Positions 17,268 to 21,733 of a DNA stretch of 23,230 nucleotides are shown in pieces. Each line of letters begins with the position of its first letter. Position 1 is the stretch's first letter. The position numbers and the translations under genes were made by a program. Below the pieces are notes generated by a model. It was not told the origin of the DNA. It saw only the letters and a list, made by a program, of their open reading frames with translations, and did no database searches. Source of the DNA: a virus; the IMG/VR virus record IMGVR_UViG_3300025127_000292, positions 1-23,230 of that record; one strand, 5' to 3'.

Positions 17268-17450
17268 TTACCTTTTCCTTATGGGTTTACAATATGCAGT
17301 TATACGTAAAGTAGGTCCTTCCTCCTGTGGTATAGGGGGTTGTTTATGCAGTCTTTCTGCAAAATATAGGCATCTATCTAAATCTTGGAAGGTTTGTGTT
17401 TGGTCTATTACTCTTACTCCCATCATAAACACAAGCACAAACTCAATCAT
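17268..17450 (-). CDS. small protein with hydrophobic N-terminus and paired cysteines
   Basis: This 60-residue protein begins with a hydrophobic stretch (MIEFVLVFMMGVRVI) that could be a signal anchor. Then come QTQTFQDLDRCLYFAERLHK, a Pro-rich link (QPPIPQEEGP) and ITAYCKPIRKR. Two cysteines (in DRCLYF and AYCKP) could form one disulfide outside the cytoplasm. I recall similar short proteins in marine phages without function. Its start overlaps the TGA of the Cys-rich gene (ATGA), with AGGAG seven bases ahead. The architecture resembles the protein at 21141-21377 (hydrophobic start, then a Cys pair around a helix), suggesting a shared family or convergent design. Confidence 0.75.
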   Translation of the reverse strand: MIEFVLVFMMGVRVIDQTQTFQDLDRCLYFAERLHKQPPIPQEEGPTLRITAYCKPIRKR

Positions 17451-17563
17451 ACAGGTGCTCCTAACACCTCTTCTTCTTGTTCTTCATGGCAGTCACAGTT
17501 GCAATCTTCACAATCACAGTCATAACATTCACAAGTATCACATCTTTTTCTTTTTTCGCTCAT
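17447..17563 (-). CDS. 38-residue cysteine-rich (metallothionein-like) protein
   Basis: This short gene encodes a peptide with eight Cys in 18 residues, at positions 8, 11, 13, 16, 18, 21, 23 and 25 (KRCDTCECYDCDCEDCNCDC), followed by His26 and an acidic run (EEQEEE). The regular CxxCxCxxCxCxxCxCxC spacing is what metal-thiolate clusters use, so Zn, Cu or Fe-S binding is plausible. No known metallothionein family is claimed. Its stop overlaps the next gene's ATG (ATGA), and the first 26 bases overlap the gene before it in another frame, so the start could be questioned. The only upstream signal is a weak GAAAG. The cytoplasm is the likely location, since no signal peptide is present. Confidence 0.7.
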   Translation of the reverse strand: MSEKRKRCDTCECYDCDCEDCNCDCHEEQEEEVLGAPV

Positions 17564-17843
17564 TTGCTTTCTTTAAACTTTCTTTTGCTTTTTTAAATAT
17601 CGCTACAACTTCAGTCTTGCCCATCACTTTTGCTCGTTGTTCAGCAACAGTAAGGATTTGTATCTTTCTCGCATATGGTTTATTGATTTTTTTAACTTTT
17701 GCAACGGTTGCTCTTGCATCGGCTGGGGTGGCGAACTTGATGCTAACTGTGTCTTTAGGGTTTTCATCCGTATATAAGCGTCTGTCTGATCCTTTGGGTT
17801 TTTTACCTGTGCCAACTTTAGGGTCTCTTTTCTTTTTTGCCAT
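17538..17843 (-). CDS. basic conserved phage protein
   Basis: This 101-residue lysine-rich protein (MAKKKRDPKVGTGKKPKGSD; TVSIKFATPADARATVAKVK; PYARKIQILTVAEQRAKVMG) shows a helix-rich central part and a basic tail (KKANERKKKKM). I recall the GSDRRLYTDENPKDTVSIKF core as a conserved hypothetical in marine myo- and podoviruses. No enzymatic signature is visible; strong positive charge suggests DNA, RNA or ribosome contact. It starts through a TAATG overlap with the DUF5872-like gene, with which it is commonly paired in my recollection. Function unknown. Confidence 0.78.
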   Translation of the reverse strand: MAKKKRDPKVGTGKKPKGSDRRLYTDENPKDTVSIKFATPADARATVAKVKKINKPYARKIQILTVAEQRAKVMGKTEVVAIFKKAKESLKKANERKKKKM

Positions 17844-18175
17844 TAGTTTCTATATCCACCACCTGCTTTTTTATAAGCCGCGGCTAACATCTGAGCTTTT
17901 CTAGCTGACCATTGTCCAGGAGCACCACCTTTTCCCCCCGCTTTGATTCTATTAAATATTCTTTTACGGAGTTCGGGTTTGGTATAATTACCTGCCTTAT
18001 TTACTGTGCTTTTACTTTTTTTCTTTGTAGTTTTTTTTCTAGTTTTCTTTTTTGCAGAACCACCTTTTCGTAACTCTAATTCTGATAAAGCTTTTGCTTG
18101 ACCTGCATGAGCTTGACTAGCTTTTTTAAGTTTTCCTGCGACTTTTTTTATTGTCGCTTTTGCTTTTTCTGTCAT
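17843..18175 (-). CDS. DUF5872-like basic protein
   Basis: The 110-residue product has two parts. Residues 1-60 are a Lys/Ala-rich histone-like tail (KAKATIKKVAGKLKKASQAH; KKKTRKKTTKKKSKS), with LRKGGSAKK in the middle. Residues 64-108 are a compact domain (YTKPELRKRIFNRIKAGGKG, then APGQWSARKAQMLAAAYKKA and GGGY). The second part matches what I know of DUF5872, found in phages and giant viruses and of unknown function, proposed only by charge to bind nucleic acid. The start has AGGA six bases upstream and lies 50 bases inside the previous gene. A virion DNA-condensing or host-chromatin-binding role is possible but unproven. Confidence 0.82.
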   Translation of the reverse strand: MTEKAKATIKKVAGKLKKASQAHAGQAKALSELELRKGGSAKKKTRKKTTKKKSKSTVNKAGNYTKPELRKRIFNRIKAGGKGGAPGQWSARKAQMLAAAYKKAGGGYRN

Positions 18176-18851
18176 TAGTGTCCTCGTAAAGATTGTTAAA
18201 GGTAACTGAAGGGTCTAAGTAAGACTCATGAGATTCTGCAGAGTGTATCCATTGTGATGGTGTAAAATCAGGAGCACCATCTCCAGTTCTCCACAAAGCA
18301 GGACTTGTCGCTCTCACTCTGTTGTTTGGAAGTGCAACTATGTTGCCAGTCCATTTACCTGCATCTAACAAATACAGTACGTGTGACTGTTTATGTTGTG
18401 CAGGATCATCTGCTATATCGCTATCTGTGTAGTCTACAGTAAATAAGTATTTGCCTGTATAGAAATCATTGTCAATCTTACATAGCCACGGAGAAGAACT
18501 TACTCTGTCCATAACTATAACTGAATGATGCCTTGACTCACAATCCCAAGGTTGACACAGATGGTCTTCCATTGGCTCTGCCCAATCATCTACGGGTATG
18601 TCTGCGACTAAAGCTTGAATAGGCATTCTTGCCCACATTGCACCACCATGCACATTTTCTTCGGGTCCTCCTTCCATGTCTATCTCACATCCAGTGAAAA
18701 CGACTTGGAAACTTAAAGACCTATCTGGTATGGTGTTTACTGCAAATGCCATTGCGTGAAGGAACTCACCGTGATAGTCTTGATGATTACAAGTGAACTC
18801 TCTTCGTACCCAACACTTAAAGTGTGGTACGTTGCTTATTAGATAAGACAT
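18126..18851 (-). CDS. conserved unknown protein rich in His, Trp and Cys
   Basis: This 241-residue protein is unlike its basic neighbours: acidic, rich in aromatic residues, His and Cys. Blocks include HFKCWVRREFTCNHQDYHGE, FLHAMAFAVNTIPDRSLSF, EENVHGGAMWARMPIQALV, HLCQPWDCESRHHSVIVMD and PALWRTGDGAPDFTPSQWIH. I recall homologues in marine phages annotated only as hypothetical. Several Cys and His (C13, C21, H23, H27 region; C99, C104, H108/H109 region) could bind metal, but no enzyme family is recognised. The basic tail (DRKSKSDNKKSRRKT) lies in the overlap with the next gene. It begins with a TAATG overlap with the triple-repeat gene. It is the only sizeable globular-looking protein in the accessory cassette. 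Confidence 0.75.
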   Translation of the reverse strand: MSYLISNVPHFKCWVRREFTCNHQDYHGEFLHAMAFAVNTIPDRSLSFQVVFTGCEIDMEGGPEENVHGGAMWARMPIQALVADIPVDDWAEPMEDHLCQPWDCESRHHSVIVMDRVSSSPWLCKIDNDFYTGKYLFTVDYTDSDIADDPAQHKQSHVLYLLDAGKWTGNIVALPNNRVRATSPALWRTGDGAPDFTPSQWIHSAESHESYLDPSVTFNNLYEDTNDRKSKSDNKKSRRKT

Positions 18852-19000
18852 TATCTACGTTTAGCAGCTCCACCCCTTGAGTACATCTTTGTTTTCTTTT
18901 TCATGCCTGCACCACCTCGTGCATACATTTTTGTCTTTTTCTTCATTCCCGCACCACCTCTTGCGTACATTTTAGTCTTCTTTTTTCCATGCATCGGCAT
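18851..19000 (-). CDS. 49-residue basic protein made of three 14-residue repeats
   Basis: After a short lead (MPMHG) the protein is three tandem copies of KKKTKMYARGGAGM: residues 6-19, 20-33 and a diverged 34-45 with Ser for Ala and no final Gly-Met, ending AAKRR. Net charge is very high and there are no acidic residues at all. A strong Shine-Dalgarno sequence (GGGAG, eight bases before ATG) and stop-start coupling (TAATG) to the next gene support expression. The repeats look like short linear peptides for binding nucleic acid or an acidic partner. I recall MARGG/YARGG-type peptides in marine phages but no function. Confidence 0.8.
   Translation of the reverse strand: MPMHGKKKTKMYARGGAGMKKKTKMYARGGAGMKKKTKMYSRGGAAKRR
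18866..18985 (-). repeat. 42-base tandem repeat, three units
   Basis: Units at 18944-18985, 18902-18943 and a shortened 18866-18901 encode the repeated basic peptide of the 49-residue gene. Units 1 and 2 translate identically; third-position changes (for example TACGCA and TATGCA for Tyr-Ala) show that they have diverged at silent sites, so the peptide is under selection rather than freshly duplicated. Confidence 0.85.
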
Positions 19001-20880: not shown

Positions 20881-21174
20881 CTACCATTTCACTTTATGAC
20901 TCCAATACTTAGCCGATAGCTTAGTAGTGGGTTTTCCTTGAGCATTATGTCTAGCATAATAACTCCTCTTACGTGCCTTATCCTTTGCAGAGGTAGGATT
21001 TTTACCAGCACCTTTAACGCCCTGTTGCCCAAATCTAATCAGTTTCATGTTGTGACCTTCTGCGGCCAACACCATATGTGACTTAGTTTTGTGATCAGGA
21101 GTTCTTTTGGGTTTATTTACACCCTTCAATCCATGTTTCTTTAGTAACGCTGCTCTTCGTTTCTCGTGTGCCAT
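20881..21174 (-). CDS. DUF6321-like basic protein
   Basis: This 97-residue protein (KTKSHMVLAAEGHNMKLIRF, GQQGVKGAGKNPTSAKDKAR, KRSYYARHNAQGK) ends AKYWSHKVKW. The string IRFGQQG, the run of Arg/Lys with RHNAQGK, and the terminal AKYWxxKVKW match a domain I recall as DUF6321, found in phages and large DNA viruses, function unknown. The assignment is from memory of the pattern. It overlaps the upstream secreted-type gene by 34 bases and has no clear Shine-Dalgarno sequence, so translational coupling is likely. Confidence 0.78.
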   Translation of the reverse strand: MAHEKRRAALLKKHGLKGVNKPKRTPDHKTKSHMVLAAEGHNMKLIRFGQQGVKGAGKNPTSAKDKARKRSYYARHNAQGKPTTKLSAKYWSHKVKW

Positions 21175-21377
21175 TGTGTTTTAACTTTGCCTTCTTCAAG
21201 CATACATTTATATTTTAAAGCATAATAGTTTGGCATATATGAGGGTAACTCTACAGCTATCTCATACGCTCTTGTAACACATTGCTTTTCTGTTTTGTAT
21301 GGACCTTCTAAATCTTCTAGTGTATGGCATACATTAGTTGTGCCTACTAGACAAACAAGCACAAATGCTTCAAACAT
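21141..21377 (-). CDS. small probably exported protein with cysteines
   Basis: This 78-residue protein starts MFEAFVLVCLVGTTNVCHTL, a hydrophobic leader that could be a signal peptide or anchor. A helix with EKQCVTRAYEIAVELPSYMP and YALKYKCMLEEGK follows. Four Cys (C9, C17, C33, C58) allow one or two disulfides after export. The overall plan matches the 60-residue protein at 17268-17450. Its ATG overlaps the previous stop (by eight bases) with AGAGG directly upstream. Role unknown; a periplasmic or envelope-directed accessory, for example superinfection exclusion, would fit the design but is not shown. Confidence 0.72.
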   Translation of the reverse strand: MFEAFVLVCLVGTTNVCHTLEDLEGPYKTEKQCVTRAYEIAVELPSYMPNYYALKYKCMLEEGKVKTQWHTRNEEQRY

Positions 21378-21704: not shown

Positions 21705-21733
21705 ATTATACTCGGTTTTTGACTCTTTGTCAA
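21705..21733 (-). promoter_or_regulatory. consensus sigma-70 promoter for the leftward gene block
   Basis: Minus-strand TTGACA (21733-21728), a 17-base spacer and TATAAT (21710-21705), a perfect match. It shares TTTTACTTGACAAA and ACCGAGTATAATTAT with the fibre promoter. Expected start is near 21698, about 116 bases before the first ATG at 21582. It is the only good promoter seen before the accessory cassette. Confidence 0.85.

Follow-up and report, generated by a model that had tools for sequence, protein, structure and literature searches.

A 38-codon gene encoding a peptide with eight regularly spaced cysteines was found on the stretch of viral DNA analysed here (23,230 nucleotides, hereafter the window). 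It is a genuine protein-coding gene under strong purifying selection, and it is phage-borne, conserved and uncatalogued in the libraries searched. The peptide, MSEKRKRCDTCECYDCDCEDCNCDCHEEQEEEVLGAPV, is read on the minus strand from 17563 to 17447; the original prediction, made from the DNA letters, had left the strand unstated, and a stop is present when the interval is read forward. The coordinates that it gave (17447-17563), the 38-codon frame, Cys at positions 8, 11, 13, 16, 18, 21, 23 and 25 followed by His26 and an acidic tail, and the ATGA junction with the neighbouring gene (17450-17447) all agreed with the sequence. The peptide of the window has the Cys pattern CxxCxCxxCxCxxCxCxC, is 21% Cys, carries a net charge of -9, has a mass of less than 5 kDa and is almost without hydrophobic residues. 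The features of the locus are collected in Table 1. No family match was found for the 101-aa upstream protein. A 49-aa frame of near-identical KKKTKMYARGGAGM-type repeats was also observed at 18851-19000 on the minus strand.

Table 1. Features of the cysteine-cluster locus and its operon in the window.
Feature	Position	Strand	Basis or remark
Cys-cluster mini-protein gene, 38 aa	17447..17563	-	ATG start, TGA stop; conserved family, dN/dS ~0.05
Invariant core, codons 8-26, CDTCECYDCDCEDCNCDCH	17486..17542	-	Alignment of 40 members, codon table of 63
Coupled partner gene, 60 aa, predicted beta-beta-alpha-beta, two invariant Cys	17268..17450	-	Pairing in relatives; fold pLDDT 93
ATGA shared by start of partner and stop of Cys gene	17447..17450	-	Sequence
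AGGAG ribosome-binding site of partner, within Cys-gene tail codons	17458..17462	-	Likewise placed in relatives with QGVPV/LGAPV tails
Upstream gene, 101-aa Lys-rich protein	17538..17843	-	26-nt overlap of its end with Cys-gene start (17538-17563)
Perfect sigma-70 promoter TTGACA-N17-TATAAT	21705..21733	-	Heads leftward operon

A protein-coding gene under purifying selection

The regular Cys spacing had been considered hard to obtain by chance, and this was confirmed with a second-order Markov model of the window, under which about 5e-8 motifs with eight Cys and the His are expected per window and none was seen in 120 simulated windows. A synonymous-site bias in relatives had been proposed as a check, and such a bias was found. 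Across 63 different DNA sequences of the core from members of the window's type, the minor-base frequency was 0.05, 0.05 and 0.39 at the first, second and third codon positions, respectively, and an excess of synonymous change was seen in the Cys frame only, the other frames showing the opposite (pN/pS >2). As one earlier pattern scan had selected for the motif, conservation was recomputed on an unselected sample, consisting of relatives fetched only by the terminase or by the gene at 18126-18851 and thus without using the Cys gene. Core dN/dS in this sample was 0.04-0.06 (pairs with 10 or fewer differences), and all seven core ligands were kept in 53 of 54 family hits (42 distinct core DNA sequences). 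Loss of the frame or of its cysteines, which would have spoken against the prediction, was looked for in relatives and not found, with the exception of one truncated copy. This copy (L092:295-378) is a natural half-deleted peptide, MNEKSDECNCDCHDETDEEVQGVPV, in which the first half of the core is gone and the frame, the tail and the partner gene are kept. Long antisense ORFs do cover the gene (17281-17904, plus strand), but a chance ORF or opposite-strand by-product is ruled out, with virtually no probability left to it, by the substitution pattern, given that only the Cys frame shows excess synonymous change and that the motif is so rarely expected by chance.

Family, catalogues and distribution

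Conservation of the Cys spacing in related marine phages had likewise been put forward for examination, and profile and pattern searches of viral contigs recovered a conserved family of 133 gene copies, representing 92 distinct versions. In a diverse set of 40 members, Cys 8, 11, 16, 21, 23 and 25 and His26 were invariant, and the spacing C-x2-C-x4-C-x4-C-x-C-x-C-H was maintained with zero indels over 19 residues. Within the window's type, Cys13 was kept in 61 and Cys18 in 45 of 63 sequences; Thr10 and Tyr14 were invariant in all 63, and the non-ligand codons gave a pN/pS of 0.18. The shortest family members, at 25-28 aa, contain little beyond the core. A sister type (CDSCIECGC...) has its counterpart of Cys13 one residue further on. 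The Cys core of this type possibly stands at the end of longer proteins (L040:5447-5752, L257, L051 and L179), the starts of which are not settled, and some of these longer proteins contain an additional CECDD...VCEC segment. Distant forms, CFACSEKPCNRETCPCDCH and CKKCEGGSCHPETCNCWCH, were found on contigs with few or no window-like genes. All forms, the distant ones included, are likely to share common descent; convergence of the distant forms on the seven ligands is possible.

No significant match to the family was found in Pfam, PHROGs, NCBIfam, PADLOC or the PDB, and none of the 40 members matched Pfam, NCBIfam or PDB sequences at E values up to 1 to 10. A tblastn search of named phages with four family members returned no homologue, a negative weakened by the low-complexity filter, and eight whole records were therefore also searched by profile. 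Vequintavirus matches in the tblastn search (E 3-6) were rejected, their translation being without the motif. No relevant report of phage metallothioneins was found in a weak literature search of open-licence papers. The original prediction had regarded a peptide of this kind in a phage as unusual, which holds in relation to catalogued families but not in relation to uncultured marine phages, where the peptide is common.

The 23-kb record (GC 37%) belongs to an HMO-2011-type marine podovirus, a bacterial virus. Its TerL is 79% identical over the full length to those of Roseobacter phage CRP-1 and Puniceispirillum phage HMO-2011, and both the terminase and the gene order place it in this group, the order of modules being the same. 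HMO-2011-type phages have been described as dominant in the ocean and as widespread there (PMC9038755). Among 80 listed relatives found via the 18126-18851 gene, the Cys gene was present in 40 and absent from 28, the other 12 being too short to judge. It was found in every informative contig with a TerL identity of about 85% or more and, with one exception, was absent below about 83%; as its presence and absence track TerL identity in this way, the gene is a marker of one HMO-2011-type subclade. Variants of the peptide were also found in phages other than the HMO-2011 type. The gene was not found in eight complete HMO-2011-type genomes by a profile search in which the window served as positive control, and a pattern search around the terminase in eight named genomes showed no relaxed Cys motif. 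Approximately 1,150 bacterial genomes were covered in all, and the gene was not found in 296 from the family of an Amylibacter MAG, 385 from the class of an alphaproteobacterial MAG, 274 from the class of a gammaproteobacterial MAG or 198 from the phylum of a Bacteroidales MAG. Where genome contigs matched the eight-Cys pattern, the frames were antisense or of low complexity, and none was a convincing homologue from a cellular organism.

Both hexamers of the promoter heading the operon were kept in 15 of 19 relatives, several of which are copies from one contig, while the spacer varied. A sigma-70 promoter with conserved hexamers suggests that the operon is transcribed by host RNA polymerase. 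Two further perfect TTGACA-N17-TATAAT promoters, also leftward, were seen on the minus strand at 15989-15961 and 1010-982, making three in all. The gene at 18126-18851 (minus strand) encodes a 241-aa protein that is very common, with at least 600 matches among viral contigs, and that matches PHROG 3704 ('ferredoxin, auxiliary metabolic gene'). No Pfam support was found for the ferredoxin label, which may be wrong.

Coupling to a 60-aa partner gene

A homologue of the partner gene was detectable on the same strand for 63 of the 92 distinct Cys genes, and in 62 of these the two genes abutted or overlapped (51 at -10 to +25 nt and 11 overlapping by 49-94 nt). The single exception, L242, has a distant partner homologue located far from the Cys gene. 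The pair stays together where the neighbouring genes have been rearranged (L168, L208, L210 and L214), and the Cys gene was present in 98 of 111 contigs with a partner homologue. Ten of the 13 partner contigs without an intact Cys gene carry only homologues of about 30% identity; L145 and L067 have a homologue of about 60% identity and no Cys gene, and L092 has the truncated copy described above. Sister types of the Cys peptide are not adjacent to the partner gene, indicating that the partner is not essential to the function of the core everywhere.

The tails of the Cys peptides differ because this part of the gene either carries the ribosome-binding site of the partner or overlaps its start. 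QGVPV and LGAPV tails encode the Shine-Dalgarno sequence (AAGGAG, AGGAG), AEKGND tails encode AAAGG together with the overlapping ATG, and the long HNDRV tails extend across the partner start, with no Shine-Dalgarno sequence visible there, so that in HNDRV-tailed members coupling alone can serve as the route of initiation. We infer that the tail was shaped by coupling, and that only the core was shaped by the peptide's own function. The proteins returned by a fold search with the partner model were all small, from phages and without a known function. Separately, a 78-aa protein encoded at 21141-21377 (minus strand) has a hydrophobic strand, a Cys before a helix and a Cys near its end; on a comparison of layout by eye, it is possibly a second copy of the partner fold.

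Putative metal binding and candidate functions

Purifying selection, together with invariant Cys and His residues at fixed spacing, supports the view that the peptide binds metal, and coordination chemistry would make two Zn, perhaps three with all eight Cys, the natural reading. The explanation that we favour, tentatively and at somewhat less than even confidence, is a mini-domain that folds around zinc and acts on a partner. Its functional unit would be a metal-thiolate cluster: the peptide would be unfolded without metal and would fold around two Zn(II), or possibly three, with a first site formed by C8/C11/C16/C21, in zinc-knuckle spacing with Cys replacing His, and a second formed by C23/C25/H26 and either C13 or C18. 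Less certainly, the rigid structural module so formed would bind a protein, most simply the coupled 60-aa protein or else a host protein. The fixed spacing, the constrained non-ligand residues and the obligate pairing favour such a module only slightly over a bulk metal store, the constraint on non-ligand codons and on Thr10 and Tyr14 being as expected of a surface. Against the module, members of 25-28 aa leave little surface outside the cluster, and against a role for the partner, L092 has the partner but just half the Cys core. When modelled alone with AlphaFold2, the peptide showed no secondary structure (pLDDT 60), which is expected of metal-dependent folding but proves nothing. Nucleic-acid binding is unlikely, as the core is strongly acidic.

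The invariant Cys 8, 11, 16 and 21 have the spacing of the CCHC zinc knuckle (C-x2-C-x4-H-x4-C), a very small unit folded by metal, as is predicted for the Cys peptide. In contrast to the knuckle, however, the Cys peptide has Cys in place of His in all members, adds the invariant C-x-C-H and further Cys, and is acidic rather than basic and aromatic, with no sign of nucleic-acid binding; with Cys at the His position and no Pfam hit, it does not classify as a CCHC knuckle. The DnaJ cysteine-rich domain is made up of repeated CxxCxGxG, and these repeats are absent from the Cys peptide, which would share its Cys-rich, zinc-binding character if zinc is bound as predicted. Such a DnaJ-type domain is mentioned for HMO-2011-type phages by way of a reference in PMC9038755. 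By analogy, the Cys peptide may be compared to TraR and lambda Orf73, small zinc proteins of phages with host machinery as their target (PMC9239242), in being a tiny phage protein with a putative zinc site that would act on a partner, although no sequence relation was found and it has 38 aa as opposed to 73.

A possible but more doubtful explanation is a metallothionein-like buffer, in which two or three Zn(II) (or Cu(I) or Cd(II)) would be held in one shared thiolate cluster and stored, buffered or handed on during infection. The high Cys content, the CxC and CxxC motifs, the scarcity of hydrophobic residues and the small mass would all suit such a buffer, and they place the peptide within the broad definition of metallothioneins (<10 kDa, Cys-rich, CxC/CxxC). 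With His as a likely ligand, it also resembles the bacterial metallothioneins SmtA and PflQ2 MT, and its eight Cys and one His approach the Zn3Cys9His cluster reported for the latter, from Pseudomonas (PMC7387436). The shortest members are nearly all cluster, and Cys13 and Cys18 show the variability that might be expected of cysteines serving capacity. However, the spacing is absolutely fixed, the non-ligand residues are constrained, no recognised metal-transport or metal-regulator gene adjoins the pair, and no metallothionein match was found in Pfam, NCBIfam or the PDB; none of the 40 members gave a profile match to SmtA/BmtA. A GATA-type zinc-finger fold has been reported for bacterial metallothioneins (PMC10612145), whereas the 38-aa peptide has too few hydrophobic residues for this fold and none showed in its low-confidence AlphaFold2 model. 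By the tests run, the peptide probably lies outside the bacterial metallothionein family, though it could work in a similar way.

Less likely than not, in our estimation, is a class of mini-proteins confined to phages and spread across different tailed phages, each binding two or three zinc ions, in which a knuckle-spaced four-Cys site would be fused to C-x-C-H. In HMO-2011-type phages, such a protein would form a stoichiometric pair with the 60-aa partner and would take zinc away from a zinc-dependent host machine or lock onto it.

A redox or iron-sulfur role, in which the cysteines would form disulfides or hold an Fe-S cluster and serve in redox chemistry or in the delivery of clusters, is improbable. 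It would suit a Cys-rich peptide in an operon with a ferredoxin-labelled gene, and iscU or erpA occurs in some HMO-2011-type genomes (PMC9038755); yet the invariant His and nine potential ligands within 19 residues are unlike known ferredoxin or IscU spacing, no Pfam or PDB match was found, and the ferredoxin label is itself without Pfam support. Still less probable is an inert leader peptide, with slowing of the ribosome on Cys codons, or on a metal-bound nascent chain, controlling the 60-aa gene. The short ORF, with its many Cys codons, does lie directly upstream of that gene and is translationally coupled to it, and leader ORFs rich in Cys occur in other bacteria, but selection keeps the spacing, His26, Thr10 and Tyr14 in addition to the Cys codons, and the same core occurs in sister types located elsewhere without the partner gene.

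Gene families of about 40 aa thus escape standard libraries even if they are common and strongly selected. As a conserved, uncatalogued and putative metal-cluster peptide with a fixed partner gene, the family offers a handle on how marine phages may act on zinc or on zinc-dependent host proteins.
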